Shown here: piece after piece, positions 17,501 through 32,957 of the stretch
Position numbering within the stretch: the stretch's first letter is position 1
How the letters are laid out: every line of letters starts with the position of its first letter
Origin: Propionibacteriaceae bacterium
Lineage (GTDB): Bacteria > Actinomycetota > Actinomycetes > Propionibacteriales > Propionibacteriaceae
Assembly: GCA_030532825.1 (NCBI GenBank)
Contig: JAUNKK010000027.1
Coordinates: forward strand, 1-32,957
Reading direction: 5' to 3'
Length of the DNA: 32,957 bases
Notes under the pieces: generated by a model
What the model was told of the DNA's origin: nothing
The model's input: only the letters and a program-made list of their open reading frames with translations
Databases searched by the model: none
Translations under genes and position numbers: made by a program

Positions 17501-20500
17501 TCGGATTCGCAAGGCACGAGGGCAAGGTCACGCTCAGCGTCGGCCGTCATACCGACCAGCAGGTGGTCGAGGTGAGCGGCCAGGCGGGCGATGGTGGCCG
17601 CATCGAACAGCTCGGTGCGGTATTCCAATTCCACGCTGTACCGGTCGCCGTGCTCCGCGATGCTGAAAGACAGGGGGAAACGGCTGCGTAGCACGCCAGG
17701 CGGCAGCGCCCGGAGCGTCAGGCCTTCGATGTCGAGGTCATTGGTGCCCATCGTGACGAAACTGACGAGCACGTCAAACAGGGGGTGGTCTTGTCCGGTC
17801 ACGGTGATGCCGCTGGCTGCTAGCACCCGGTCCAGGGGGGCGTCCTGGTGGGAGAGAACCTCGGCGATATGGTTCCGGGTCTCACGGATGGCCTCCCGAA
17901 CGCCCCGGTGGGCGTCGGCACTGAGACGCATCGGCAGGCTGTTTACAAACATGCCGACGACCTGCTGGCTCCCGACCGTGGTGCGGCCGGACAGCGCGGT
18001 CCCGACGACGAACTCTCGCTGGCCGCTGTGCAGGCCGAGAACGCGGGCCACAGCCGTGAGGAAGACAGCGTAGGGGGTCGCATCGGCGGCGGCGGCAAGC
18101 TGGGCAATCGACTCCTTGGAGGCGGAGCAGTAGATCGTCTGCCGGGCACCGGCGAAGGTCGCATCCTGGGGCGGAGTGTGGTCGCATGGCAGGTTGATGC
18201 GGCCCGGGGAGTCGGCGAGCAGTTTGGTGAAGAACGCCACGTCCTGGTCGAGTTCCCCGCTGGCGGCGCGTTCCTGTAGCTGAGCAGCGCACTGCGCGTA
18301 GGTGGCTGGCACGACGTCGAGGTCCCGCCCGGCCCACGCGTCGGCGAGGTCCTGGCCGAGGATCGCGAGCGAGCTCTGGTCACCGACGATGTGGTGCAGG
18401 TCTAGACGGAGGTAGTGCTCGCTCTCGTCGACGCTCAACACCTCGACGCGGAACAGCGGGGCCTGGGCAAGATCGAATGGCTTCGGTTCGGACGCCATAC
18501 GCCTAGCGGCTTCGTCGCGGGTGACGTGCTCGTGGGCGACGACGTCCGCCACCTCGTCGGTGACGTGCATGGTGACCTCGGAGCCTTCGAGATGGAACGA
18601 AGCCCGCAGCTGGTCGTGCCGCGCGACGAGTGCGGCGCAGGCGAGACGCAACCGGGCTACGTCCAGAGGACCGGTCACCTGATATCCGATAGCGAGGTTA
18701 TAGGCGGTGCTGGCGTCCTGCATGGAACACGCCGCGTAGATGTTGCGCTGCGCGGGCGAAGCGGGGAACACACCGGCCGTGGCAACCGATGCCGGCTGGG
18801 CCGCGACGGGAAGGCAGACATCCGCGTCGAAGCAGGCTTTGAGGGCGCCAAACGTCGGCGCAGCGAAGATGTCGCGGACGGTGATCGTGACTCCGGCGCG
18901 TTCCTTGATGAGCGAGCACAGGCGCACTGCGGCGAGGGAGTCACCGCCGGAGGCGAGGAAGCTATCGCTGTCTGCGGGGTCGGTGCCGATGACCTGGACC
19001 CAGGCTTGGCGCAGCACGTCGGGGGTGACGTCGGCCGTCTCGGTTACCTGGTTGGGGGTGTCGAAAAGCCGGTCTAGGCGCACGTCGGAAAGCAGATGTT
19101 GCTGGGCGAAGGCGTAGCCGGGAAGGGGGATCCTGCGGCCGCCGCGGTGGAAGTGGTCGCGGCCGATCTGCCCGCCACGCACCCATTCAGAGGCGAGCAA
19201 GGTGCGCAGAAGGTCACTAGACAGGGGATCCTTGACGATCCGCGCCCCGGGGATAGCCTCCAGAGGCGCGATAGTCACGTTTCGAGACCGGAGTTGCGTG
19301 AGGGCCGCGCCGGCGTCGAGTGTGCCAGCGGCGTATGCCCGTGCGATGCGCACGAGGCGATCCTGCCCGGCCCGCGCGGTCAGGCAGTCATTTCCGACGG
19401 CGCTCAGAATGGCGGCACGAATGATGAACTGGGCGACCCGTTCGGCTGAACGGTCGGTAGCGGCGCCCGACAGGGCAGCTTCTAGGGCTTTGCGAGCCGC
19501 CGCGTCGAAGCGGGACAGCCATCGCCCGACGGCCGCGAGAATCTCGGCGGCTAAGGTGTCGCCGGCCTCCAGGTCGGGGGGAAGGATGAGGGCGACATCG
19601 TCGGAGGCATCGGCAACGACGGCGGGAGCCCCGGTCTCCACCCATTCGAGGTACCGGCCAGTGCGGGTGACGGCGGCGGCTCGGCGATCGAACTGGGCGC
19701 GCCCCGTCACAAGGGTGTAGGCCGCGTCGCGGAGGGAGACGCCATCGGCCAGGGCACGCTCAACGTCGCGCTGCATGGTGAGGCGGGACTCGTCTGTCAG
19801 GGCGGACACGCCGAGGACGACAGCGCCGTCTAGCTCTGGGAGGTCTTCGCCGTGGATCGGAGCCTGTTCAAGGATGATGTGAGCGTTGGTGCCGCCGATC
19901 CCGAAGGAGCTGACGGCAGCCTTCCGGACTGTGGTGTCAGCGGCCGCCCCGACGGGAACGTAGAGGTTTCCGGTCGGCTGAATGGCCTGATTGATTTTCG
20001 TGAAGTTGGCCATCGGCGGGATCTGCTGGCGGTGCAGCACGCCGACCGCTCCGAGGAACCCGGCGATGCCGGCGGCGGCGTCGAGGTGTCCAATGTTCGC
20101 CTTAACGGCGCCGAGCGCGCACGGGGAGTCCTGGCCGTAGACCTCGGACAGGGCCGCGTACTCGATGGGATCACCCATCGCCGTGCCGGTGCCGTGGGTT
20201 TCCACGAAGTCAATCTCATCCGCATCGACCCCGGCATCGGCTAGCGCTGCGCGGATCACCCGTTCCTGGCCCTTGACCCCGGGCGCGGTGTAGCCCACTT
20301 TGGCGTCGCCGTCGTTGTTGATCGCCGTTCCCGCGATGACTGCGTAAATATGGTCACCGTCCCGCAGAGCTGCGTCGAGGGGTTTCAGCAGAACCAGGCC
20401 GCAGCCCTGACCGGCGACTGTCCCGTCCGCGTCGGCGGAGAATGGACGGCACACCCCGTCGCGGCTAAAGATCATGCCGTCCTGCCACAGGTACCCCTCC

Positions 20501-23500
20501 GCCCTTGGGAAATTGAGTGCCACGCCCCCGGCCAACGCCATGTCAGCTTCGCCGCGACGCAGACACGCGACGGCTTCGTGGATGGCCACGAGCGACGTTG
20601 AACAGGCGGTCTGAACGGTGACGGCAGGCCCGGTGAGGTTGAGTTTGTAGGCGACCCGGGTAGCGAGGAAGTCTTTCTCGTTGCTGGTCAGCGCCTCGAA
20701 CGCGGCCATCGGGTCCGTGTTTTCGCTGAGTAGCCCGGCGACCCACGCGAAGTTGGTTCCGCTGCCGGCGAACAGTGCGATATTCCCGTGCTGCTGGCGC
20801 GGATCGTAGCCGGCGTCCTCAAGGGCGTGCCAGGCGGTTTCGTGAAGGATGCGGGCCTGAGGGTCCATCGCCTCTGCGTCGCGACGCGAGTAGGCAAACA
20901 GGTCGGTGTCGAAGGTATCGGCGGCGATGTGGCCGCGGGCGGGCACGTAGTCGGGGTGGTCGAGGAGGGGTTCGGCCACACCAGAAGCGCGCAGTTCGTC
21001 CCGGGTGAAACGCCGGATGCTGACGATGCCGGCGGCCCGGTTGTTCCAGTGCTCCGTCACCGATCCGGCGCCCGGCAGGTGGCCGGCGACGCCAACGACG
21101 GCGATACGCGTCGAGGTGCTCGTCTCGTCCTGCCACTCCTCGAAGTGGGCAAGGTCTTGGAGGGAGAAATCCGCCTCGGCGGGCTCGGGTTCGGCGACCG
21201 TATCGGCGGCGCCGAGGCTGGTGGCCAGCGCGCGTGGGGTCGGGTACTCGAAGAGCTGAACCAGGGGGATGTCGGCGTCGAGGGCCTCGTTGAGGCGGTT
21301 GCTGACGAGCATCAGCTTGAAGGAGCTGCCGCCGATGTCGAAGAAGTTGTCGTTCGGGGCGACAGGATGCTGAAGTACCTGCTCCCATACCCCGGTGATG
21401 ACGTCCAGGGTGTTGGCCGCCCTGGCCGGTTCTGGCGACGGGGGACGTGGCGCCTCAGGCTGCTGGCCCAGGGCGGAGCGGTCGATCTTGTTGTTGGGCA
21501 GTCGAGGCATTTCGGGAACCTGCTGTACGGATCGTGGGGTCATGTACTTGGGGAGGGCGGCGGCGATGGCGCTTCGGATCGACGCTGCCGGGTCGCCTGC
21601 GGTTTCCTCAGCGGTGAAGTAGCAAACGATGTCGTCGTTTTCGACGAGCGCGACCGCGTAGGTGACGCCGTCGGCACGCATCGCGACCTGCTCGATTTCG
21701 CCGAGTTCGATGCGGTTTCCGTTGACTTTCACCTGGTGGTCGGTGCGACCCTTGAGTGCGATCTCGCCGTTAGGCAGCAGCGCTCCGACATCGCCGGTGC
21801 GGTACACAGGTACGTCCGGCAGCTCGGGAAGGGTCGTGAAGGCGCGCCGGGTCTCGTCGGGACGGTTGACGTAGCCCCGCGCTAGGCCCTGCCCGGCGAC
21901 GCACAGTTCACCAGGCACACCAGCGGGAAGCGCCATCCCCGCGTCGCTGACGACGAGCAGGTGGGACCCAAAGATCGGTGATCCGATCGTGACGGCGTCG
22001 CCGGGGGCCAACTCTTTGACGGTGGTGGTGACGGTGGTCTCCGTCGGCCCATACATGTTGAACACGCGCGCCGACGTGGACTCGTGCAGGAGCTCGACCA
22101 GGTTTTCGGAGAAGTGTTCTCCGCCGCACACGATGACGCGGAGCTGTGGGAGCTGCGCGCGGAAGCGACGATTGCCGCAGAAGGCCGCCATCTTGGAGAC
22201 GGGAACCTGGATGTGGCTGACGTTGTGCGCGGCGATGCGGCCGGCCACGGCCCCGGCGTCCTTCTGGTCACGAGTCGGGCACAGGTGGATGGTGGCGCCC
22301 GCGGCCAACGGGATGAGGCTTTCGAACGCGAAGATGTCGAAGGTCGGGTCGGCCAAGCTGATGATGACATCGCCGGGTTCGAAGATGCTTCGACGCTGGT
22401 GGTCCTGGAAGAGGTTCGCCAGTCCGCCGTGCTTGACGGCAATGCCCTTGGGGCGTCCGGTGGATCCGGAGGTGTAGACCACGTAGACGGGGTCGTCGGC
22501 GGTAACGGTCGGGGCGTCGAAGGATGCGGCGCCCCCCTGGTCGCACGAGTTGAGGTCGAGGACGGTTGCCACGGATGTCGTGGCAGCGAACCCGGCGGGG
22601 GCAATCGCGAACCTGGGATTGATGTCTTCGAGGATGCGGGCGTGTCGATCCGCGGGCTGGGTGGGATCCAGGGGCACGTAGGCGCCGCCGGCCTTGCTGA
22701 TCGCCAGCTGCGCGATGAGCAAGTTGGCGCTGCGCTCGGTGACCAGCACGACGGGGTCGCCGACCTTGAGGCCGGCGGTGACGAGACGCGCGGCTACCGC
22801 GTCGGCCAGCAAGTTCAGCTGAGCGAAGGTGAGGTTGCCACCCTCACCGTCGATGACCGCGACCGCTTCGGGCTGCTGCCCAGCCCGGCGAGCGATGAGG
22901 TCATGGAGGGGGGTGAACGGGGCACCGGTCAGTCGCGCACGCCATTCATCGTGCTCCGCCTCGCTGTAGATGCTGATCTGGCCCGTCGGGGCGCTTGGAT
23001 CGGCGCAGGCGTGCTGCAGGAAGGCGTCGAAATGGCGGGCCAGCGCCTCAATCGTTTCGGCGTTGAACAGGTCCGCCGCGTAGTCGAACTGAAGGTGGAT
23101 TCCGCTGGCGGTCTCGCGACCCGTGATGACTAGGTCCATGCCGACGGCAAGCGGCACAGTCTCGATCTGGCGGGCGGCTAGGCCGCCGATATGAAGGTCG
23201 TGGTGCTCGATGTTGTGGAAGTCGAAGGAGACATCGCACAGCGGATGGCGTCCCGGGATGCGCTGTACGCCGAGCCGGTCGACGACGTGTTCGAAGGGCA
23301 CGTCGAGGGCAGCGAGGCTGTCGAGGACTACCTCACGGGTGCCGCGGAGGTAGTCGGCGAAACTGGTATCCCCGCGTGGCGTCAGGCGCACCGGCAGCAT
23401 GTTGACGAACATGCCGACCATTTCACGAGTCTCGACAGCGGTGCGGGCACTGCCCGGGGTTCCGATGACTAGATCCTCGGTGCCGCTGTACCGGGAGAAC

Positions 23501-26500
23501 ACGGCTCCCCATGAGGCGAGCAGGACCATCGACAAAGTGGCCTGGTGCTGCTCCGCGAGGGCAGCAATGCGCTGCGCGAGTTCCGGGCGGATGGTCCAGT
23601 CGATCCGCCCCGCGGCCGGGGTGTGTTCCCCGCGGGGATGGTCGAGTGGGAGGACATCCGGTGACGGCGGGGTGTCGAGTCGGGTCAGCAGGGCGTCCTC
23701 GGCCTCGATCAGTTCTGCCGAGACATCGACGGTGCGGAGGTGGTGGACGTAGTCGACGTATTGAAGGGCTGGGGGTTCGAGGTCGTGCTCGTAGAGCTGC
23801 CCGAAGTCGCGGGCGAGGATCTCTGCGGAGGTGGCGTCGGCGACGATGTGGTGGACATCGAACAGCAGGAGGCTGGTGGCGGCGTCTTCCACAATTTCCA
23901 TGCGGAACAGGGGCCCGGTATCAAGGTCGAAGGGCCGGATGAAGCGTTCTAGGTGGGTGGCGGCCGACTCGGCGGTGGCTGTGCCGCGCGAGAAAGTCAA
24001 GGGCAGGTCGGTGAGTGCGACGACCCGCTGCCGGACTTGCCCACCGTCGGACGAGAACACGGTACGAAGCGGCTCGTGGCGACGAACCAGCCGCTCCAGC
24101 GCGGATCGTACGCGGACATGGTCGAGGTGCCCGTCGAGCAGGGTTACCGATGCCATGTTGTAGGCGGGCGAGTCGGGCGCGAACCGCGACGCCAGGTACA
24201 TGCGTTCCTGGGCTGCGCTGAGGGGATGGTCGGCGCTGAGCGGGGCCTTGGACATCGCGGCGGTGACCGCACGTTGCGGCAGCCGGTCGGCCAGCGCCTC
24301 CGGGGTGGAGGCAGCGAACACATCCGCGACGGTGACGTCGACACCCAGCATCGTCTTCAGGTGGGCGGTGAGGCCCGTCGCTTTGAGTGAGTCGCCTCCA
24401 AGAGCAAAGAAGTCATCGCTCGGGGCCACCTCGGAGTGCCCCAGCACGCGGCGGTAGGCCTCCCGAATTGCGTCTACCCGGCCAGCGGGGATGGACCGGC
24501 TGATGGGGTCGTTGGGCTCGGTGGTGACAGCCAGGGTCGCCCCACCCGAGACGGGATGCGGGCTCTGGTCGAAACTGTAGCCGGGTAGGGAGACGCGCCG
24601 CCCCGTTGACTGACTGGTCCAGTCAATCGGGAGGCCAGCGGCCCAGGCTGCCCCGAGGGCGGCCAACAGGTGGGTTTCGTCGCTGGTCTCGGCAGCGGCA
24701 TGTCGGAGCACACCTACGACCGGCACGTCGCCACCGTCGCACTGCGACACGAACGTGGCGAGGCTGTTGCCCGGGCCTGTCTCGATTGCGACGAGGGGCC
24801 CATCGGTGAGGAGGGTGGCGATGCTCTCAGCGAACCGGACCGTACCGGTGATGTGGTCCCCCCAGTACGTCGGGTCGGTCATCTGACCGGGTCGAACGAG
24901 TTCGCCGGTCCGATCGGACACGATGGGGATGCTGGGCTCCTGAGTCGTCACCCGGGCGACGGTTGCCGCGAATGCATCGGCGGCGGCCGCCATCATCGGG
25001 GTGTGGAAGGCGTGAGAGGTCTGCAGCTGAACGCCCACGATCCCGGCCTCGTCGAGGCGGGTGAGCACTTCGTTGAGGACCTGGGGGGCCACACCGATCA
25101 CCGAGCGCTGGGGTGAATTCTCAAGGGCAAGCCAAGCCTCGGGGAGGTCCGCCACCGCTGCGGCGGCCTCTGAGGCCGAAGCCAGCGCGGCAACCATGAC
25201 ACCCGGCGGCTGGGCCTGCATGAGGCGGCCGCGCTCACGCACCAGCATCGCCGCGTCCTCCAAGCTCCAAACACCAGCCAGGGTCGCCGCTGTGAGTTCG
25301 CCGATGCTGTGCCCGACCATGACGTCGGGGACAATCCCGAAGGATTCGAGCACCTTGGCCACGGCAATTTGGGTACTGAACAGCGCATACTGGGACCATT
25401 CGGTGCGGTGGATGCGGCCGTCATCGACCCCACCCCACACGACGTCACGGAATTCGTCGGCATCAGCGCTGGGCAGCAGTGCGATGAGCTGCTCCATCCA
25501 CCGCTGGTAAACGCTCGCCGCGGGGCCCGTACCCGTGAGCAGGCCATACCCCATCCGGTGATACTGATTGCCCTGGCCTGAGAACATGAAAGCCCGGCGG
25601 GGCGCCGCCTGAGCGTGAGTCGGGTGTACGACGAGGCGTTCAAGCCAGGCCGCCGCGTCACGCGCTTCGCCGCCCCGCACCACGAGGGTGGCGCGGTGGG
25701 GCAACTCGGTGCGTGAACGCAGGGTTGTAGCGACGTCCGCGAGGCGGATCGTCGGATCTGCCACGATGTGCTGGATCACACGCTCAGCAGTCCGGGTGGC
25801 CGCGTCAGCGGTGGCTCCAGAGAACTGGAGAAGCACCGTCTCTTCATCGCCCATGCTGGGGAGGGCTGGAGCCTCCTCAAGGATCATATGCACGTTGGTG
25901 CCCCCGACACCGAAAGAGTTGATGCCTGCCCGCAGAGGCTTGGCTTCCAGCGTCCGGTTCTCGGAGCTCACCTCGAAGGGAGTGGCCGGGAAGTCGACAT
26001 GTGGGTTGGGGGTGGCGAAGTTGACGGTGCCAGGCAGGAGCCGGTGCTTCAGGCTGAGGGCGACCTTGGCGAGGCCGACGGCCCCCGCCGCGGAATCGGT
26101 GTGCCCGATGTTGCCTTTGACGGATCCCAGCAGGCAGCTTTCCCGGGGGGCTTCGGCAAATGCCCGCGTCAGCGACGCAACCTCAATCGGGTCTCCGAGC
26201 GGGGTGCCGGTGCCGTGCGCCTCAATAAAGCTGACGCTTTCCGGGGGGATGTTGGCTGTTCGGTAGGCGGTGCTGATCGTCTCGTACTGGCCGTCTTCGC
26301 TGGGGGCGGTGTAGGACTGCTTGCGACGGCCGTCATTGCCGCTGGCCGAACCCTTGATCACGGCGTAGATGGGATCCTCGTCGCGAACGGCCATGGCGAG
26401 GGGTTTGAGCACGAGCAGCGCCGCCCCGTTCGAGAAGACGGTCCCGCTCGCAGCTGCATCAAATGGGCGGCAGTGGCCGTCGCGGGACAGCATCATGCCG

Positions 26501-29500
26501 TCGACCCACTGGTAGCCGCCGCTGTTGGGCAGTTCGACGGTCACGCCCCCGGCCACCGCCATATCACATTCGCCGGTGCGCAGCGCCTGGACCGCAAGGT
26601 GAACGGTCATCAGCGACGAGGAGCATCCGGTCAGCGCGGACAGAGATGGCCCCGTGAGGTCAAAATGGTAGGACAGCCGGGTGCTCAGGAAGTGGTTGGT
26701 CGCCAGGGTGAAGTTCTGGTAGGCGTCACCAAAAGACCCACCGTTCATGAGGGTGCGCTGGTACCAGGTGAAGTCGTCACTGCCGGCGGCGAACACGCCC
26801 ACGCGGCCGGGGAGAGCTTGCGGATCGTAGCCTGCGTCTTCGCAGGCGAGCCAGAAGCACTCGTAGAGCAGCCGAAGCTGCGGGGATGTGACATCCACCT
26901 CAGCAGGCGATAGCCCAAACAGGCGGTCATCGAACGTGTCGACGCCCTCAATACGGCCGGCGGCCCTGACATAGGCGGGGTCCCGAAGCAGCGTCTCTTC
27001 GACCCCCAGGGCACGCAGTTCATCGTTGTCATAAAAGGTGATGGACTCTCGGCGGCTGACCAGCAGATCCCAGAACGAATGCACATCGGCCGCCCCGGGA
27101 ACCTGGATGCCGACTCCGATAATCGCGATGTCCGCGCCCTGAGAACCGTCGCTACGCACCGCGACGGGCGCCGCTTGTTCGGCGGGCTTGATGAGGCTGG
27201 TCTGAGCGGCGATCGTGGGGTGGCTGAGCAGGTCGGTGATGCTCAGTTCGACTCCGAGGGTGTCCTGCATCTCAATTTGCAGCCGCATCAGGCTGAGCGA
27301 TGTACCGCCCGACTCGAAGAACGTGCGCTGGCGGTCAGTGATCGGACGTCCCAGGACCTTCTGCCACAACGCTGCGATGCGATCAGCGACAGCATCGACG
27401 GCTAGCTGCGCGGTCGGCGCTTCAGGGCGTCCGATGAGTTCCCGCAGCGCCGCGCGATTCAGCTTGCCGGCCGCGGAGGTGGGCAAAGCTTCGACCTGGA
27501 TGAGGACAGACGGGATGAACTGCGTGATGAGGGCCGTGCCCAGAGCAGCCCGGATCTGCTCCGGCGAGATCTCGGAATCTGCCGCATAGAAGCCCACGAG
27601 CCGCGGCTCCCCCATGGACTCATCCACTAGAGCGGCCGCCTCAACGATCCCCGGGACACCAAGCATCGCCCGCTCGATCTCGCCCAGTTCCACACGCAGC
27701 CCGCCGACCTTGACCTGCCGGTCCATACGCCGCAGGAACGCGAAGCGGCCATCAGAACGCAGGTAGCCGAGGTCGCCCGTGCGGTACATACGTCGCATCA
27801 CATCGGGGTCGGATGACTCGTTGAAGAGAGGATTCGGCACGAACTGCCGCGCGTTGAGGTCCTCCTGGTTCAGGTACCCGGCCCCGACGCCGGCCCCGAC
27901 AATGCACACTTCACCGGGCAGGTCGACGCCGCAGAGCTCACCTTGACGGTCCAGGATGTGGATACGGTAGTCATTGAGCGGGACGCCGATGGGGACATTG
28001 TCGACGGCGTCCTGAGCGCTGATCCGGGTGTGGGTTGCCCACATCGTCGCTTCGGTGGGGCCGTAGACATTCTCCAGGGTGCACGACAAGTTGAGCGCGA
28101 AGAACTGGTTGATGATGTCGGCCGTGAGGGCTTCACCGCCAACGAACAGATACCTGAGGCTCCGCAGGTCGTTGGCTCGGCTACGAGCGCTGGCGAGCAG
28201 GACACGCAGCAGCGTCGGCGACGTGTTCAGGTGGGTGACTTGGAAGCGCCGAACTGCGCTGATGACCGCCGACGGGTCAGCCTCCTGCCCCACTGGCAGG
28301 ACCGCAAGCATGCCTGCCCCAACGAGCCAGCCATAGACCTCGGTCCCGAAGATGTCGAATGTGAATGAGGTTTTGAGAAGAAAGACATCGTCCGCTCCGA
28401 GCGGGAAGCGTCGCTCAAGGTCCAGGGCGGTGTTTTGGACATTCGCGTGGGTGATCGCCACCCCTTTGGGATGGCCGGTCGATCCGGAGGTGTACTCGAT
28501 GTAGAGCAGATCCTCGGGGGTGCGGTCGACGTAACTCGCTCGCTCCTGGATGATCGTGCGGGTGTCGTCGGCGAGAACGGCGATCTCCGGGCAATCATCA
28601 ACGTTGACCCGCACGACCCCCTCAGGCAACTCGAGACTAGCCGCGGAGTAGGTGAGGACGGTCCGCACATCAGCGTCGGCCAGCATGCCGGCAATCCGGC
28701 CTGCCGGCATGTGTTCAGACAGCGGAACATAGGCACGTCCGGCCAGGACGCTCCCAAACACAGCCGCGAGCAGCGCGGCACCGCGTGGCAGGAGGATGGC
28801 CACGGGGGTGCGGTCATCCACGGTTCTTAGGAGGCGGTGCTGGACGAGAACAGCAGCGTCGTGCACCCAGGCGTTAGAGTAACTGCGATTCTCGTCAACC
28901 CACGTCGGGGCGGCGGGATCTGATGTAGTGCGCTCCAGGAAGAGCGTGCCGAGATCGGTCGGTGTCCAATCAAAGTGGTGAGTCCCTCGTGCTGACTCGA
29001 GCAGTTCGGCCTGCTCAACAGCGTCGGTGGCACACAGCGAAGCCACGGGCGCGTGGATATCGTCGGCGATCTGCCCAATCAGGTGGAGCAGGCGCTGCGC
29101 GAACAGGGCAACGCTATCGGCAGGCAGCGCGGATTCCTTGTACCAGACGACGATGTCGGTGCTGTCCCCCAGCTGCTCAACCGTGACGGTGAGCACACCT
29201 GGGAAGTGGACTTCATCAGGGCGAACCATGGACCGGACGCCCTCGGGCAGGCGTGGGTAGGCATCGTGGATAAAGGTGATGTCGAACAGGTTGACGCTTG
29301 GCAGTCGGGAGAGCATCTGAGTGACGGGGTAGTCGAGGTTCCGCCACAAGTCCATGATCTCGGTGCGAGTTCCGGCCAGCAGTTCCACTACGGTTTGACT
29401 CCCCGCGGCATCAATGCGGACCGGCAGGGTGCGGATGAAGCACCCGATGCTGCTGTCCATCTCCAGGTGGGGCCGGTCGGTAAACGGGCTGCCGAAAGAG

Positions 29501-30279
29501 ATCTGCTCCTGGCCGCTGTAGCGGCTGAGGAGGACCCCGAAGGCCGCCAAGTAGACGGTGAACTCTGAAACCTCAGCATCGCGAGCCGCCGAGCATACCT
29601 TCTGATTCAGGGTGGCAGGCAGGCTCAGGCGATACTCGCGTGCGATGTCTTCGCGGGGGGCACTAGCCAGCCAATGACCGAGTTGCGGCGTCTCGTGACG
29701 AGCGATGTTCTCCGTCCAGTAGCTTTCGCGCCGAGCGCGAACCTGAGGCGTCGGTTCCAGAACCTGATCCTCCTGGTAGACGATCATGCCCTGATCAAGC
29801 TGGGGTTCGAAGATCTCACCCGTCCCGCGAGCTAGCCCGAGAATGCGTTCAGCCAGGATGCTGGCCGACTGTCCATCGGCGATGAGGTGGTGGCAGACGA
29901 TCACCAGTCGCATTCCGTCGCCAGTTGCTACGGCGAGCACGCGGAACAGCGGGGCTGTATCCAACTGGAACGGGGTATGACGAGCCCTCATCATCACCGC
30001 TTCCAAGTCCGTGTCATCCGCGGTGAAGTCGTGGTGAGTCACCGGGGCCGGCACCGTGTCAGCAATCGCATACGAGGGGCCGGCCGCACTCTCAACGATG
30101 GCGGCGCGCAGCGCTGGCTGCTCAGCGATCATCGCTTCGACCGCCTGCACCAGACGCCGATAATCGACTGGTTCAACGTCGAGGTCGACGACGATGTGGT
30201 AGTCGGCTGCCTGGCGCAGCTGACAGTCGAAGAACATTCCCTGCTGGGCAGGGGACATCGGCAAGATGTGGTTGCTCAC
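14512..30279 (-). CDS. Giant hybrid NRPS-PKS megasynthase (C-A-T-KS-AT-T-C-A-T-KS-T-C-A-T-C-like)
   Basis: This is a single open frame of 5,255 residues. It starts at a GTG (30279) with AGGAG 8 nt upstream and ends in an ATGA overlap with the KS-carrier gene. Domains in order: C1 (1-435), A1 (440-945), T1 (Ser994), KS1 (1049-1470), AT (1560-1865), T2 (Ser1964), C2 (2018-2445), A2 (2455-2940), T3 (Ser2986), KS2 (3055-3475), an AT remnant (about 3480-3735), T4 (Ser3781), C3 (3836-4270), A3 (4280-4765), T5 (Ser4807), and a C-terminal condensation-superfamily domain (4862-5245). It is a cytoplasmic assembly line that alternates three amino-acid modules with ketide extension. No epimerase core motif, methyltransferase, KR, DH, ER or thioesterase was found. 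The frame is intact with no stop or frameshift across 15.8 kb. I cannot match it to a characterised product. Confidence 0.95.
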   Translation of the reverse strand: MSNHILPMSPAQQGMFFDCQLRQAADYHIVVDLDVEPVDYRRLVQAVEAMIAEQPALRAAIVESAAGPSYAIADTVPAPVTHHDFTADDTDLEAVMMRARHTPFQLDTAPLFRVLAVATGDGMRLVIVCHHLIADGQSASILAERILGLARGTGEIFEPQLDQGMIVYQEDQVLEPTPQVRARRESYWTENIARHETPQLGHWLASAPREDIAREYRLSLPATLNQKVCSAARDAEVSEFTVYLAAFGVLLSRYSGQEQISFGSPFTDRPHLEMDSSIGCFIRTLPVRIDAAGSQTVVELLAGTRTEIMDLWRNLDYPVTQMLSRLPSVNLFDITFIHDAYPRLPEGVRSMVRPDEVHFPGVLTVTVEQLGDSTDIVVWYKESALPADSVALFAQRLLHLIGQIADDIHAPVASLCATDAVEQAELLESARGTHHFDWTPTDLGTLFLERTTSDPAAPTWVDENRSYSNAWVHDAAVLVQHRLLRTVDDRTPVAILLPRGAALLAAVFGSVLAGRAYVPLSEHMPAGRIAGMLADADVRTVLTYSAASLELPEGVVRVNVDDCPEIAVLADDTRTIIQERASYVDRTPEDLLYIEYTSGSTGHPKGVAITHANVQNTALDLERRFPLGADDVFLLKTSFTFDIFGTEVYGWLVGAGMLAVLPVGQEADPSAVISAVRRFQVTHLNTSPTLLRVLLASARSRANDLRSLRYLFVGGEALTADIINQFFALNLSCTLENVYGPTEATMWATHTRISAQDAVDNVPIGVPLNDYRIHILDRQGELCGVDLPGEVCIVGAGVGAGYLNQEDLNARQFVPNPLFNESSDPDVMRRMYRTGDLGYLRSDGRFAFLRRMDRQVKVGGLRVELGEIERAMLGVPGIVEAAALVDESMGEPRLVGFYAADSEISPEQIRAALGTALITQFIPSVLIQVEALPTSAAGKLNRAALRELIGRPEAPTAQLAVDAVADRIAALWQKVLGRPITDRQRTFFESGGTSLSLMRLQIEMQDTLGVELSITDLLSHPTIAAQTSLIKPAEQAAPVAVRSDGSQGADIAIIGVGIQVPGAADVHSFWDLLVSRRESITFYDNDELRALGVEETLLRDPAYVRAAGRIEGVDTFDDRLFGLSPAEVDVTSPQLRLLYECFWLACEDAGYDPQALPGRVGVFAAGSDDFTWYQRTLMNGGSFGDAYQNFTLATNHFLSTRLSYHFDLTGPSLSALTGCSSSLMTVHLAVQALRTGECDMAVAGGVTVELPNSGGYQWVDGMMLSRDGHCRPFDAAASGTVFSNGAALLVLKPLAMAVRDEDPIYAVIKGSASGNDGRRKQSYTAPSEDGQYETISTAYRTANIPPESVSFIEAHGTGTPLGDPIEVASLTRAFAEAPRESCLLGSVKGNIGHTDSAAGAVGLAKVALSLKHRLLPGTVNFATPNPHVDFPATPFEVSSENRTLEAKPLRAGINSFGVGGTNVHMILEEAPALPSMGDEETVLLQFSGATADAATRTAERVIQHIVADPTIRLADVATTLRSRTELPHRATLVVRGGEARDAAAWLERLVVHPTHAQAAPRRAFMFSGQGNQYHRMGYGLLTGTGPAASVYQRWMEQLIALLPSADADEFRDVVWGGVDDGRIHRTEWSQYALFSTQIAVAKVLESFGIVPDVMVGHSIGELTAATLAGVWSLEDAAMLVRERGRLMQAQPPGVMVAALASASEAAAAVADLPEAWLALENSPQRSVIGVAPQVLNEVLTRLDEAGIVGVQLQTSHAFHTPMMAAAADAFAATVARVTTQEPSIPIVSDRTGELVRPGQMTDPTYWGDHITGTVRFAESIATLLTDGPLVAIETGPGNSLATFVSQCDGGDVPVVGVLRHAAAETSDETHLLAALGAAWAAGLPIDWTSQSTGRRVSLPGYSFDQSPHPVSGGATLAVTTEPNDPISRSIPAGRVDAIREAYRRVLGHSEVAPSDDFFALGGDSLKATGLTAHLKTMLGVDVTVADVFAASTPEALADRLPQRAVTAAMSKAPLSADHPLSAAQERMYLASRFAPDSPAYNMASVTLLDGHLDHVRVRSALERLVRRHEPLRTVFSSDGGQVRQRVVALTDLPLTFSRGTATAESAATHLERFIRPFDLDTGPLFRMEIVEDAATSLLLFDVHHIVADATSAEILARDFGQLYEHDLEPPALQYVDYVHHLRTVDVSAELIEAEDALLTRLDTPPSPDVLPLDHPRGEHTPAAGRIDWTIRPELAQRIAALAEQHQATLSMVLLASWGAVFSRYSGTEDLVIGTPGSARTAVETREMVGMFVNMLPVRLTPRGDTSFADYLRGTREVVLDSLAALDVPFEHVVDRLGVQRIPGRHPLCDVSFDFHNIEHHDLHIGGLAARQIETVPLAVGMDLVITGRETASGIHLQFDYAADLFNAETIEALARHFDAFLQHACADPSAPTGQISIYSEAEHDEWRARLTGAPFTPLHDLIARRAGQQPEAVAVIDGEGGNLTFAQLNLLADAVAARLVTAGLKVGDPVVLVTERSANLLIAQLAISKAGGAYVPLDPTQPADRHARILEDINPRFAIAPAGFAATTSVATVLDLNSCDQGGAASFDAPTVTADDPVYVVYTSGSTGRPKGIAVKHGGLANLFQDHQRRSIFEPGDVIISLADPTFDIFAFESLIPLAAGATIHLCPTRDQKDAGAVAGRIAAHNVSHIQVPVSKMAAFCGNRRFRAQLPQLRVIVCGGEHFSENLVELLHESTSARVFNMYGPTETTVTTTVKELAPGDAVTIGSPIFGSHLLVVSDAGMALPAGVPGELCVAGQGLARGYVNRPDETRRAFTTLPELPDVPVYRTGDVGALLPNGEIALKGRTDHQVKVNGNRIELGEIEQVAMRADGVTYAVALVENDDIVCYFTAEETAGDPAASIRSAIAAALPKYMTPRSVQQVPEMPRLPNNKIDRSALGQQPEAPRPPSPEPARAANTLDVITGVWEQVLQHPVAPNDNFFDIGGSSFKLMLVSNRLNEALDADIPLVQLFEYPTPRALATSLGAADTVAEPEPAEADFSLQDLAHFEEWQDETSTSTRIAVVGVAGHLPGAGSVTEHWNNRAAGIVSIRRFTRDELRASGVAEPLLDHPDYVPARGHIAADTFDTDLFAYSRRDAEAMDPQARILHETAWHALEDAGYDPRQQHGNIALFAGSGTNFAWVAGLLSENTDPMAAFEALTSNEKDFLATRVAYKLNLTGPAVTVQTACSTSLVAIHEAVACLRRGEADMALAGGVALNFPRAEGYLWQDGMIFSRDGVCRPFSADADGTVAGQGCGLVLLKPLDAALRDGDHIYAVIAGTAINNDGDAKVGYTAPGVKGQERVIRAALADAGVDADEIDFVETHGTGTAMGDPIEYAALSEVYGQDSPCALGAVKANIGHLDAAAGIAGFLGAVGVLHRQQIPPMANFTKINQAIQPTGNLYVPVGAAADTTVRKAAVSSFGIGGTNAHIILEQAPIHGEDLPELDGAVVLGVSALTDESRLTMQRDVERALADGVSLRDAAYTLVTGRAQFDRRAAAVTRTGRYLEWVETGAPAVVADASDDVALILPPDLEAGDTLAAEILAAVGRWLSRFDAAARKALEAALSGAATDRSAERVAQFIIRAAILSAVGNDCLTARAGQDRLVRIARAYAAGTLDAGAALTQLRSRNVTIAPLEAIPGARIVKDPLSSDLLRTLLASEWVRGGQIGRDHFHRGGRRIPLPGYAFAQQHLLSDVRLDRLFDTPNQVTETADVTPDVLRQAWVQVIGTDPADSDSFLASGGDSLAAVRLCSLIKERAGVTITVRDIFAAPTFGALKACFDADVCLPVAAQPASVATAGVFPASPAQRNIYAACSMQDASTAYNLAIGYQVTGPLDVARLRLACAALVARHDQLRASFHLEGSEVTMHVTDEVADVVAHEHVTRDEAARRMASEPKPFDLAQAPLFRVEVLSVDESEHYLRLDLHHIVGDQSSLAILGQDLADAWAGRDLDVVPATYAQCAAQLQERAASGELDQDVAFFTKLLADSPGRINLPCDHTPPQDATFAGARQTIYCSASKESIAQLAAAADATPYAVFLTAVARVLGLHSGQREFVVGTALSGRTTVGSQQVVGMFVNSLPMRLSADAHRGVREAIRETRNHIAEVLSHQDAPLDRVLAASGITVTGQDHPLFDVLVSFVTMGTNDLDIEGLTLRALPPGVLRSRFPLSFSIAEHGDRYSVELEYRTELFDAATIARLAAHLDHLLVGMTADAERDLALVPCESDAEFSRRRAALTGRNTPIETGLDAPLRESFIQHRDLIALRWEGQEWTYGQVDELTSRLAGGLQAAGICSGDIVATILDRGPWQVWSRLALARMGAIELPLDPEAPAQRIEQMLSDAGAIAALAGDPSRQDLPSGLPAFDPAELTGYFQAPRDLVPTSPLIMIYTSGTTGQPKGVLVTHGGILSACVDTGYLDAGPGDRVLHLTRHTFDPSMLDIYSSMLTGATLIMGSHAHNMDMCLLAQFLRSERVTKGLLITAVFHLLMAEDPQAIVGMTALYVGGEAMQPWAAQRAWEVLGAGRLFNIYGPTEVSICSTFFRVDEYPSYERMPIGGPTHNRELFVVDAQGTDLPCGVPGELCIAGPALALGYHRREELTAERFPENLGGLGKRVYRTGDKVVLDDQYRIIYLDRVDRQVKHAGYRIELSEIENVMQRHAGVTEAVVLHTTTEENDSRLLGFYTGDATAEELRGHLLQALPTYMVPQHLTSVAEFPLTRHGKVDRAQLLTLGADARPVLPETADDTVDDLLGLARSVFALPDLAPDANFLTLGIQSIQAIALARRLRECGFDAQVSDIYRYPSVAELRSILSVPLQAPPVGRATPAAVDCERIVADIVADARDLADAFASDAPSYRFEAGILARFHTATGSVGGCTHTVQGVQAPALREALGDLVAAHEMLRARVSGDWFDVIPEEAVADLADLVRIHDLSALAAEQATEITDAIARDLTRAPFEGGLLWRVAMVLEPTGSIRLTWAFHHSIFDGFSARLLSEELVRRSRGLAVPAAQPYSDFLRQLDGDHNWAEEFAGFDYDAWLTSNEVVTGALALDPLPSRVSLPLNGDDPLGQALREVHAQLSGVTCEPRVSVGIVSDCRHWRGRHYGACVGEFLDVVPVTLTGLDDQPLVSQRLASARERGLHYLHALANLAPTADQGVARLRGLYHGGDTLGLVLVNFQGHIPPADVPSGDLPGLALAAAQVNIWYDDSQLHLQWITAPAPVPTEAIA
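14515..15696 (-). other. C-terminal condensation-superfamily domain of the megasynthase
   Basis: Residues 4862-5245 hold an intact HHxxxDG (His5010, His5011, Asp5015, Gly5016). The domain lacks the opening LSPAQ motif of ordinary C domains, and the DG is not followed by Ser-Trp as in epimerases. Late in the domain NFQGHIP is followed by a short strand-rich end, more like epimerase or PapA-type acyltransferase tails than a C domain. It could epimerise the T5-bound residue, transfer the chain to an alcohol or amine, or be inactive. Only the superfamily is supported. Confidence 0.6.
15730..18774 (-). other. Megasynthase module 5: C3-A3-T5 (NRPS)
   Basis: C3 carries HHIVGDQ (His3962, His3963, Asp3967), with Gln in place of the motif Gly. 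A3 has core IYTSGTTGQPKG (4421-4432), Asp4467 in FDPSMLD and Lys4753 in HGKVDR. The pocket by alignment reads D-P-L-L-Y-G-I-I-C, an unusual combination that I cannot assign. T5 has Ser4807 in LGIQSIQA. Confidence 0.85.
18790..21111 (-). other. Megasynthase module 4: KS2 - AT remnant - T4 (PKS)
   Basis: KS2 is complete with Cys3226 in QTACSTS, His3362 in THGTGT and His3398 in ANIGHLD. About 250 residues follow (3480-3735; 19075-19842) in the AT position, without GHSxG or HAFH. The segment ends in IPLPGYAFAQQ, which matches the conserved AT-to-carrier linker, so an AT has probably been reduced here. T4 is SGGDSL with Ser3781. Malonyl loading must be in trans or by the module 2 AT. Confidence 0.85.
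21205..24237 (-). other. Megasynthase module 3: C2-A2-T3 (NRPS)
   Basis: C2 carries HHIVADA (His2143, His2144, Asp2148), so the final Gly of HHxxxDG is Ala. MVGMFVNMLPVRL marks the later C5 motif. A2 has core A3 YTSGSTGRPKG (2602-2612), Asp2648 in FDIFAFE and Lys2931 in NNKIDR. The pocket by alignment reads D-I-F-Q-V-G-M-V-T, with no confident substrate. T3 is GGSSF with Ser2986. Confidence 0.85.
24265..27135 (-). other. Megasynthase module 2: KS1-AT-T2 (PKS)
   Basis: KS1 has Cys1219, His1355 (EAHGTGT) and His1393 (NIGHTD). The residues before the Cys are Leu-Thr-Gly instead of the usual Asp-Thr-Ala. The AT carries Ser1658 in GHSIGE and His1759 in HAFH, the motif of malonyl-CoA-specific ATs (methylmalonyl types have YASH). 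FSGQGNQY opens the AT. T2 is GGDSL with Ser1964. This is the only intact AT in the window. Confidence 0.9.
27160..30279 (-). other. Megasynthase module 1: C1-A1-T1 (NRPS)
   Basis: C1 has an intact HHxxxDG (His130, His131, Asp135, Gly136) and begins with PMSPAQQGMFF. An N-terminal C domain in a first module usually acylates the first amino acid, or accepts a chain from another protein. A1 has core A3 YTSGSTGHPKG (596-606), the conserved substrate-binding Asp642 and the A10 lysine Lys939 in AGKLNR. By alignment to the GrsA positions the pocket reads D-I-T-N-F-G-V-M-W (235, 236, 239, 278, 299, 301, 322, 330, 331). I cannot assign a substrate from this. T1 is GGTSL with Ser994. Confidence 0.85.
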
Positions 30280-30571: not shown

Positions 30572-30600
30572 ACCCTACGGAGATCCCGGACCATGGTCAA
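30572..30600 (-). promoter_or_regulatory. Predicted operon promoter with palindrome over the -35
   Basis: Reading the minus strand, TTGACC (30600-30595) is followed after exactly 17 bp by TAGGGT (30577-30572), a good actinobacterial primary-sigma promoter. The expected transcript start is near 30565. The perfect 10-bp palindrome GACCATGGTC (30589-30598) overlaps the -35 hexamer and could be an operator half or whole site. The promoter points at the megasynthase and leaves a leader of about 286 nt. Confidence 0.55.
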
Positions 30601-30675
30601 CGGGATTGCACCCAAAGTTGACTCAGCCCACATGGAAGCGGCCAGGACGGGAAAAGCGCAACCGGGCCGGTTCGG

Positions 30676-31806
30676 TCAGGCCTTGACGGCGTCGACGCGG
30701 GGCAGAGGAATGGTGACCGTGGCGCGCCACAGGGAGCCGTGCGGCCCGAAGGAACAGGTCCCGCCGAGCATGGTGACGCGCTGACTCATACCCACGAGGC
30801 CGTCACCGCCGCCTTTGGCGGGGGAATCGGAACCGATCTCGTTTTGGGTTCGGATGACGATGGATCCCTGGTCTTCCAGGACCTCGACGATGCATTCTCC
30901 TGGCGCGCCGTGCCAGACGAGGTTGGCCACGAGCTCGCCGAGAATCCGGGAAATCGTGTGCTCCAGTTCGGGGGAGAGCACAAGATCCCCGATATCGAAT
31001 CGAGTCTGGGGGTTGAACCCGCTGTCCGTGAGGGCCTCTTGCACTTGGTCCCACTGCTGGGCCAAGGAGTGTCCGCCGGGGCGGCCGAGGAAGCGGAAGT
31101 CCTGGTCTACGTTGCGCAAAGCCGCCATGGCCTCCCGGAGTTCGCGGGCGGCTGCGCGGGAAAGCTCCAGTGCCTCGATCACTTGGGGGGTGAGGTCTTC
31201 GCTTAGGTGGGGGTCGTCGGCCAGTTCCTCTAGGTGCATGACCAGCAGGGCCTGTGTCTGGGCCACGCTGTCGTGGAGTTCGCTAGCCATGAGGAGGCGG
31301 GTGGAGCGCAGCGCCTTCTCGCCCTGGCGCATAGCCTGTTCCTGCGCTTCCCTTCGCCGGCAGGCCAGCTGGCCTGCCACGACCGCGAACGCCGTGACCC
31401 CTGCGAAGCCTAGGAAATTGGCAGCCCAGTCATCCCAGGAATGCCGCATCGTCCATGTCACCGTCTGGAGGATGGGATCGGCGACAGCCAGCCACCAGCG
31501 CCCCCGACGTCGGCGATACATCCAGTTATAGACAAACAGTGACGTCCCTAGATTCATAAGCGTCCAGGGGAGCGGGAGGACCAGCCAGCCAGCGAGATGC
31601 ACCAAGGCGATCAGCCAGGCAATTCCGTGTCTGCGCGGCAGAATGATCGTCGCGCACAGCATGATGGCGATCAGCCCCACGTGGCTCCAAGTCAGGCGCT
31701 CCCAGAAGGCGCTGAACGTGAAGAGTGCCAGCAAAGCACCAACGACCGGTTCGATAGACCAGCCCCTTAGCCCAAAACGACCAGGGCCACTAGCGTGACG
31801 AGGCAT
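30676..31806 (-). CDS. NarL-type sensor histidine kinase
   Basis: This 376-residue membrane kinase senses an unknown signal and phosphorylates a NarL/LuxR regulator, very probably the divergent one at 32398. About four to five TM helices fall in residues 17-150 with almost no extracytoplasmic domain, as in kinases that sense within the membrane or respond to peptides. The HisKA_3 domain shows phospho-acceptor His178 in ELHDSVAQ, including the D-x-x-x-Q phosphatase residues (Asp179, Gln183). The HATPase_c domain shows Asn295 in ELVANLVWHG and the G-box GDGLVGM (about 335-341). The ATG at 31806 has no SD, but TAGAAT ends six bases before it, suggesting a leaderless mRNA. It is in the same orientation as the biosynthetic operon but probably a separate transcript. 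Confidence 0.93.
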   Translation of the reverse strand: MPRHASGPGRFGLRGWSIEPVVGALLALFTFSAFWERLTWSHVGLIAIMLCATIILPRRHGIAWLIALVHLAGWLVLPLPWTLMNLGTSLFVYNWMYRRRRGRWWLAVADPILQTVTWTMRHSWDDWAANFLGFAGVTAFAVVAGQLACRRREAQEQAMRQGEKALRSTRLLMASELHDSVAQTQALLVMHLEELADDPHLSEDLTPQVIEALELSRAAARELREAMAALRNVDQDFRFLGRPGGHSLAQQWDQVQEALTDSGFNPQTRFDIGDLVLSPELEHTISRILGELVANLVWHGAPGECIVEVLEDQGSIVIRTQNEIGSDSPAKGGGDGLVGMSQRVTMLGGTCSFGPHGSLWRATVTIPLPRVDAVKA

Positions 31807-31993: not shown

Positions 31994-32152
31994 TCAGCAG
32001 CGCCAGCGGAAGACGCACAACCAATTCCCCTGGATCCGGACCTCGGTCCTAGCCGCGGATAAGGTAGAAGTCGGCTCGGCCGCGTGGGCCGGCACGGCCA
32101 GCTGAGGGAGCAAGACCAAAAGAGCGGCGGCGAGGGCGATCCTGAACTTCAT
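31994..32152 (-). CDS. Predicted 52-residue secreted peptide with C-terminal Cys loop
   Basis: The frame begins with Met-Lys-Phe-Arg, then an uninterrupted hydrophobic core (about residues 5-20), and a Pro-Ala-His-Ala cleavage site near residue 24. This is a textbook Sec signal peptide. The mature part is about 28 residues and ends in NWLCVFRWRC, with Cys46 and Cys52 as the only cysteines and Arg/Trp between them. GGAGAG lies just before the ATG at 32152. It is in the same orientation as the sensor kinase, 187 bp upstream of it, and inside the divergent kinase/regulator locus. It may be a signal peptide for the kinase, a cationic disulfide-loop antimicrobial, or the remnant of a longer secreted protein. 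No continuation is visible in other frames. I do not recognise a family, and expression is not shown. Confidence 0.5.
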   Translation of the reverse strand: MKFRIALAAALLVLLPQLAVPAHAAEPTSTLSAARTEVRIQGNWLCVFRWRC

Positions 32153-32385
32153 GACTCTCCAATACTTGCGAGGGGAATGACCGTGCGATCTCGGGGCCAC
32201 TGCGCTGGTAACCCAACAATTCAGGAGATGCGAATCACATCATCCCGAACTCGATGTCAGGTGCACTTTGATCTCAAGTCATTCAATGACTGTTCTGTGA
32301 TAGCAAGTCAATACCATGCCGGCGGAGAGTTCCTGTCGGCGTCAACTTCCGGGGACATCGTCTTCGGCGGCCTGGGGAGCGCCGG

Positions 32386-32391
32386 TAGATT
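32386..32391 (+). promoter_or_regulatory. -10 element of the response regulator (leaderless start)
   Basis: TAGATT ends six bases before the ATG at 32398, placing the predicted transcript start on the initiation codon. No SD is present at a useful distance. A weak -35 candidate TTCGGC lies at 32363-32368 with 17-bp spacing. The spacing is the same as at the divergent kinase gene. Confidence 0.45.
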
Positions 32392-32397
32392 GATGGC

Positions 32398-32957
32398 ATG
32401 AGCGAAACTGACATCCGCGTCCTCGTCGCGGAAGACCACGAGCAGATGCGGGCGCGCATCCACCGCATCGTGGACGCGATGCCGGGAGTCGCGGTGGTGG
32501 GCACCGCGAGTAACGGGCTCGCCGCCGTCTCGGCCGCGAAGCGGTTGGAGCCGGACGTGATCCTGATGGACATCAACATGCCGCTCCTCAACGGGATCCA
32601 GGCGACGTCCCAGATCGTCGATCTGCGGCTGAGTGCACGCATCATCGCGCTGACCTCGCTGGAGGACGACTCCACTTTCCACGAGGCATTGCGCGCGGGT
32701 GTCGCCGGCTTCCTTCTCAAGACGAGCTCCCGCGGCGAGATCATGCACGCCATCCAGCAGGTCCACCTGGGCGAATCGATGCTCTCCCCCAGCCTCATCA
32801 CCAGGGTGCTAGCCAACTACGAGCAGGGGCACCGACCCTCGCGGATCATCACCGATCTCCCCGAGAAGGACCTTGAGTTGCTTCGCCTCATCGCCGAGGG
32901 GCTCAGCAACACCGAGTTGGCGGAACGGCTCGGGCTCTCCCCCGCGACGGTCAAGAG
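32398..32957 (+). CDS. NarL/LuxR-family response regulator (truncated by window end)
   Basis: I read this frame directly from the sequence: 186 residues up to the window edge, with perhaps 25-35 missing. The receiver domain has the acidic pair Glu12-Asp13, the phospho-acceptor Asp58 in LMDINMP, a Thr in ALTSLED and the conserved Lys in FLLKTS. The C-terminal helix-turn-helix of the LuxR type begins at LPEKDLELLRLIAEG and continues through LSNTELAERLGLSPATVK to the edge. It is divergent from the sensor kinase and is its likely partner, so it is the best candidate to control the biosynthetic operon and perhaps the peptide gene. The start has no SD and looks leaderless. Confidence 0.93.
   Translation, partial: MSETDIRVLVAEDHEQMRARIHRIVDAMPGVAVVGTASNGLAAVSAAKRLEPDVILMDINMPLLNGIQATSQIVDLRLSARIIALTSLEDDSTFHEALRAGVAGFLLKTSSRGEIMHAIQQVHLGESMLSPSLITRVLANYEQGHRPSRIITDLPEKDLELLRLIAEGLSNTELAERLGLSPATVK

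Follow-up and report, generated by a model that had tools for sequence, protein, structure and literature searches.

A candidate secreted Cys-loop peptide between an HPK7 kinase and a NarL-type regulator at an NRPS-PKS locus of Propionibacteriaceae

What is the role of a 52-codon open reading frame (ORF) that lies between a histidine kinase gene and a divergent regulator gene, beside a biosynthetic gene cluster? The question is raised by a contig of 32,957 nucleotides from a Propionibacteriaceae bacterium (contig C192 of the genome labelled G000), which is called the window here. The minus strand of the window encodes an HPK7 histidine kinase of 376 aa (30676..31806; HisKA_3 above cut-off) and, downstream of it on the same strand, an NRPS-PKS megasynthase ORF of 5255 aa (14512..30279), the presumed target, the first 4999 residues of which contain three condensation, three adenylation, two KS and one AT domains as well as five carrier stretches according to Pfam. 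The megasynthase ORF is followed by genes for a KS/carrier protein, an aminotransferase, a thioesterase, MFS, FtsX, ABC and KS proteins and a phosphopantetheinyl transferase. On the plus strand, the gene of a NarL/LuxR-type response regulator (32398..32957; Response_reg and GerE above cut-off) is cut by the contig end after 186 aa. The small ORF itself occupies 31994..32152 on the minus strand (stop codon included), with no gene between it and the kinase gene, so that the regulator and kinase genes are its only neighbours, and the first-pass annotation had placed it correctly between a kinase and a divergent regulator. The same annotation had credited the kinase with almost no sensor domain, which is wrong: an AlphaFold model of modest quality (6 sequences; mean pLDDT 68, pTM 0.37) predicts six membrane helices joined by short loops, together with a long signalling helix and the DHp and ATPase parts, giving a sensor of about 130-150 residues, modelled without an outer domain. 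The named records among the nearest relatives of this kinase belong to Arachnia propionica, [Pseudopropionibacterium] massiliense and a Propionibacteriaceae MAG. The window comes from a relative of Arachnia, a bacterium of the mouth.

The ORF would encode a precursor peptide of 52 aa, MKFRIALAAALLVLLPQLAVPAHAAEPTSTLSAARTEVRIQGNWLCVFRWRC (52 codons plus stop), behind a ribosome-binding site GGAGAG (32155..32160, minus strand), the GGAG of which lies 4 nt before the ATG. Its N-terminus reads as a signal peptide, MKFRIALAAALLVLLPQLAVPAHA (32081..32152, minus strand), with a basic start, a hydrophobic core and an A-H-A cleavage-like site after residue 24, a layout shared by the counterparts described below. 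The 28-residue tail after this site (31997..32080, minus strand) varies between relatives and ends in the terminal loop C-V-F-R-W-R-C, i.e., Cys-x5-Cys (31997..32017, minus strand). The length, the signal-peptide-like start, the cleavage-like site, the ribosome site, the tail and the Cys-x5-Cys end had all been noted earlier and are indeed present. A loose detector, defined by a signal-peptide-like start plus a terminal Cys-x4-12-Cys, gave 43 matches in 1.07 Mb of other loci on both strands (13 in a variant with a ribosome-site filter), and about 0.02 or fewer matches are expected by chance in the roughly 430 bp that flank the position of the ORF on its two sides. The divergent region between the peptide and regulator genes also holds an imperfect 16-nt direct repeat with a spacing of 29 (32266-32310).

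A similarity search with the 52 residues, which had been proposed as a check, was nearly uninformative with the peptide alone, and its useful part proved to be the inspection of sequence beside homologous kinases, which revealed the counterparts. The best relative of the peptide-only search (E 0.0071) lies inside a 450-codon open frame, the syntenic relatives scored E 0.016 (G006) and 0.48 (G002), the single Pfam match was far below cut-off, and NCBIfam, the PDB and a plasmid collection gave no match to the window peptide. The weak peptide-only matches, the sub-threshold Pfam score and the blank NCBIfam and PDB searches are what a chance ORF, or the decayed start of a longer secreted-protein gene, has in its favour. 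However, a chance origin is untenable because the position of the ORF is conserved in relatives, and the ORF's own stop codon and ribosome site, purifying selection in related peptides and the existence of independent paralogous systems leave this reading with a probability close to nil. Where the first-pass annotation had looked to a lack of conservation, or to decay of a longer gene, as grounds for dropping the candidate, synteny and an own stop codon were found instead. Judged from these sequence comparisons, the 52-codon ORF is a real gene and not an isolated one.

Window-type kinases, defined at E <= 1e-30 and searched in 198 genomes of the family, were found in seven genomes, all of one genus (the Arachnia group of Propionibacteriaceae), giving nine kinases including that of the window. 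A short signal-peptide ORF lies upstream of six of the nine (the window, two kinases of G006, G002, G004a and G005), and a seventh, G004b, retains just the last bases of a G002-type peptide upstream; no peptide was found upstream of the window-type kinases of G034 and G023. The terminal Cys pair is present in four of the six peptides, the tails of which end in NWLCVFRWRC (window), HWLCEVFRLQCPRK and FWNCRCFRICF (G006) and NFLCHIWRGYC (G002), and the tails of G004a and G005 are without cysteine. Peptide and kinase of G005 are separated by about 1.8 kb of other DNA, which includes what reads as a transposase-like ORF. The two kinases of G004 stand in tandem (L045, 9123-13218), with identical catalytic halves, different sensors and other DNA between them. 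As for the genes beside these kinases, the megasynthase seems to be absent or shortened in the relatives G034, G004 and G006: MFS, FtsX, ABC, KS and PPTase genes adjoin the kinase in G034 (L044, 10984-18263), a short condensation ORF with MFS and FtsX in G004 (L045, 13780-19500), and a short condensation ORF plus a thioesterase in G006 (L041, 1895-4067). The kinase copy in G005 adjoins a lanthipeptide-type locus, in which two LanM-like ORFs occur together with a C39 ABC exporter (L047, 9644-18998), and a 60-aa hydrophobic ORF lies on the other strand between the peptide-less kinase and the ABC genes of G023 (L048, 8714-8896).

A weak match of the peptide in G010 revealed a second system, comprising a double kinase of about 770 residues and a divergent LuxR-type regulator, located between ftsY and ffh (Pfam assignments in G010 and G004). 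The double kinase occurs in 14 of 39 genomes of the genus (E <= 1e-60), and in all 14 loci a signal-peptide ORF that encodes a terminal Cys pair lies between regulator and kinase. Nine of these loci have ftsY and/or ffh beside them: both genes were seen in seven (G010, G034, G023, G004, G002, G005 and G069) and one flank gene in two that lie at contig ends (ftsY in G000, ffh in G006); neither gene was found in the flanks examined of the loci in G003, G018, G021, G022 and G030. A third system was found in a scan of the 17 HisKA_3 loci of the window genome, on contig C102, where a peptide ending in QYLCHIAPLFCGL follows AGGAGG; a C102-type peptide with a terminal Cys pair is present at all six close homologues, C102 included (E < 1e-100). 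Since three peptide-linked kinase types are each found in the window genome, this genome has three systems, i.e., peptides at 3 of its 17 HisKA_3 loci, and no peptide was detected within the 1.5-kb flanks of the other 14.

These paralogous loci bear on the suggestion of the first-pass annotation that the Arg/Trp-rich loop belongs to a membrane-active peptide. A small bacteriocin or membrane-active peptide, which the kinase would sense for self-immunity with cluster regulation being secondary, fits this loop composition and the ABC exporters or lanthipeptide-type locus next to some window-type kinases. However, in the ftsY-ffh loci of G010 and G004 the space between the two housekeeping genes is taken up by regulator, peptide and kinase only, and neither an exporter nor an immunity gene is present there, so a membrane-active peptide looks less likely and this explanation is regarded as improbable.

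The association extends beyond the genus. Among 31 loci of more distant kinases that were scanned, 16 could be judged (11 had no kinase ORF by the motif used and 4 had no upstream sequence), and 10 of the 16 have a secreted-type peptide with a Cys pair upstream. These ten peptides span six genera other than that of the window, four of them are without a clear ribosome site, and ends of the form C-x2-hydrophobic-P-x2-C, such as CYYLPWLC, CGWLPIAC and CYYLPFLC, are common. At 15 class-level kinase loci (most from genomes of 7-10 Mb) no such peptide was found, the one detector match being without a ribosome site and judged spurious. In a tree of catalytic domains with 70 rows, all 37 peptide-linked kinases (G004b counted by its remnant) fall into one clade of 47 with support 100/99, the bootstrap being not fully settled. 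No peptide was detected at the other 10 kinases of this clade or at the 23 outside it, which come from the window genome and the class-level set. The peptide label needs 9 changes on the tree compared with a mean of 23.6 for shuffled labels (0 of 500 shuffles as low). Because the rows were fetched by similarity and 15 further ones were dropped (no recognisable H-box, no ORF, or too short), the tree shows an association with one kinase lineage and is not a census.

Selection on the peptides was compared in 11 pairs of related members, none of which includes the window peptide because its nearest counterpart is too distant. The dN/dS ratio was below 0.41 in eight pairs and about 0.5 in two, suggesting purifying selection in related peptides, and it reached 0.9 for G002/G004a because the tails of this pair do not align. 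The same pair was compared at the DNA level in 60-column windows. The start of the regulator gene shows an identity of 0.93-0.98 and the signal-peptide region one of 0.70-0.95, the alignment is lost over the mature tail and the gap behind it, the sensor reaches 0.52-0.77, and most windows of the catalytic part are at 0.87-0.97, a few being at 0.73-0.78. At the protein level, G004a is 60% identical to G002 in the sensor and 92% in the catalytic part, the corresponding values for G004b and G002 are 92% and 92%, and the two G004 kinases are 62% identical in the sensor and 100% in the catalytic part. Thus, in this one pair of relatives (G002/G004), the peptide tail and the sensor appear to have changed together. 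This matches the specificity pattern of agr and ComX, in which tail and sensor vary and the regulator start and catalytic part are conserved.

The main rival explanation is that the hydrophobic N-terminus stays uncleaved and that the product is a membrane-tethered modulator, the short Cys-containing outer part of which touches the kinase of the same cell, as MgrB does with PhoQ. MgrB is a bitopic membrane protein whose periplasmic region contains C28 and C39, and PhoQ has a periplasmic domain (PMC10576120). MgrB is thus a small protein with an outer Cys pair that touches a kinase (PMC10576120), and the size, N-in topology and two outer cysteines of the window peptide resemble MgrB; its adjacency to the kinase and the co-variation would also fit a dedicated partner protein. 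However, the peptide differs in its cleavage-like site, long linker and variable tail, and the sensor here consists of membrane helices. In most members an A-x-A-like site can be read, behind which comes a linker of roughly 10-25 residues that is rich in Pro, Thr, Ser and Ala, and a hypervariable tail paired with a hypervariable sensor is expected more of diffusible specific signals than of a fixed subunit. Tethering is considered rather unlikely, and release of the ligand as a pheromone is judged to be the probable outcome.

The Cys-pair peptides now number 34 members (14 double-kinase, 6 C102-type, 4 window-type and 10 from other genera), and their terminal cysteines are probably functional. 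A disulfide may join the two. A search for VKOR gave no match in the window genome (G000) or in any of the eight further genomes that have a copy at ftsY-ffh, and disulfide formation is therefore unsupported. Within the genus, VKOR is present in 28 of 39 genomes, including the five other double-kinase genomes, so that it splits the 14 double-kinase genomes into nine with an ftsY-ffh copy, where it is absent, and five others, where it is present.

A link between the regulator and the biosynthetic genes is suggested by two operator-like sites in the window. One, TCAACTTCCGGGGA (32342..32355, plus strand), lies in front of the regulator gene and 44 nt upstream of TAGATT (32386-32391), and the other, TCAACTTTGGGTGC (30608..30621, minus strand), lies 329 bp upstream of the NRPS-PKS start codon and is accompanied by TTGACC (30595-30600) and TAGGGT (30572-30577) on the same strand. 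Such TCAACTTYSGGKG-type sites precede the regulator gene in six genomes (the window, G006, G034, G004, G002 and G005). In six (the window, G006, G034, G004, G002 and G023) they precede the operon that adjoins the kinase, an NRPS-PKS, condensation-domain, MFS or ABC one, and three further sites are located downstream of the kinase in G005, at a second place in G023 and off-system in G004. The off-system site, a perfect match, is at 6214-6227 of L049, about 1 kb or less from a partial regulator homologue. At 13 of the 15 sites a -10-like hexamer TAnnnT follows, its first base 43-45 nt from the start of the site, compared with a background of 0.5% for random positions and 1.1% for intergenic ones; the exceptions, with no such hexamer at this spacing, are the second site of G023 and the separate site of G004. 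Of the six operon promoters, five have TTGACC or TTGACG at offset 21 (17 nt before the hexamer) and that of G023 has TTGGGA. Because the operator pattern was drawn from these same loci, more weight is given to the constant spacing seen from genome to genome. The pattern, allowing up to one mismatch, has no match in 1.07 Mb of loci taken from other organisms. In the window genome, the two exact matches are both within the window; with 19 one-mismatch matches the total of 21 equals that of a reversed control (21), and the scan added no further members to the regulon. Consensus promoter and terminator scans found nothing. No operator-like site facing the peptide gene was found, and autoinduction would thus rest on the shared divergent region.

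Taken together, synteny, paralogy, the specificity-cassette pattern and the shared operator-like site strongly support the autoinducing-peptide layout that the first-pass annotation had proposed, and taking the peptide as the cognate ligand of the kinase would explain the conserved position, the paralogy, the tail-sensor change and the shared site at once. The ORF product would be exported via Sec and cleaved after AHA to a 28-residue peptide, perhaps trimmed further to its aromatic Cys-loop end, and the neighbouring HPK7 kinase would recognise it through its six-helix membrane domain. The kinase would then phosphorylate the divergent NarL-type regulator, which would bind the TCAACTTYSGGKG-type sites that closely precede two core promoters, that of the regulator gene and that of the NRPS-PKS operon, turning on the cluster when the cognate peptide accumulates. 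As a whole, this proposal from sequence, a Sec-secreted pheromone sensed by the six-helix kinase with the regulator activating itself and the NRPS-PKS, is considered likely.

Among known systems, agr relies on a kinase of the HPK10 class, a regulator of the LytTR type and the protease AgrB, and AgrC-like sensors have no outer domain. The window system resembles agr in its C-terminal Cys-containing motif, its membrane sensor without an outer domain and its hypervariable peptide and sensor cassette. However, its kinase is of the HisKA_3 type and its regulator carries GerE (NarL-type), and no AgrB-type protease gene was found among the window ORFs scanned. The blp, pln and spp loci of lactic acid bacteria, where peptide, kinase and regulator control biosynthesis or export operons, are similar in that arrangement; their peptides have double-glycine leaders and dedicated ABC exporters, and their kinases are HPK10. 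As for ComQXPA, one source assigns ComP to HPK7 and the NarL family and has surfactin synthesis induced by ComP-ComA (PMC8895600); another describes a variable pheromone that is encoded next to a membrane kinase and forms specificity groups, the pherotypes (PMC4408185). The likeness lies in an HPK7-type membrane kinase with a NarL-type response regulator (HisKA_3, Response_reg and GerE above cut-off) and in a hypervariable pheromone and sensor with a conserved catalytic part, the latter seen in one pair, G002 and G004. The differences are the Sec-type signal peptide, the Cys pair and the divergent regulator gene, and no gene for a modifying enzyme such as a ComQ-type isoprenyl transferase adjoins the peptide in the window or in the G010 and G004 ftsY-ffh loci. 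By analogy, the window system may work like ComQXPA or agr, and it is filed under neither because no ComQ-type gene adjoins and the kinase and regulator classes differ from those of agr. A published census places comQXPA-like loci in no phylum but Firmicutes (PMC4008528). In the literature covered, which mostly leaves out subscription journals, no description of the present system was found.

Quorum sensing in which peptides act on membrane kinases has been described mainly in Firmicutes, and a recurring, co-varying actinobacterial peptide-kinase family would add a signalling class. In its broadest form, the proposal is that Propionibacteriaceae possess a peptide language of Sec-secreted Cys-loop pheromones with their own HPK7 kinases, in up to three parallel channels per cell, one often located between ftsY and ffh, with the window channel directly switching on the NRPS-PKS and with peptide and sensor exchanged together to give new specificity groups; this wider reading is favoured by a narrow margin over its being untrue. 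If true, it would offer a natural set of matched peptide-receptor pairs and a direct handle for waking silent natural-product clusters.
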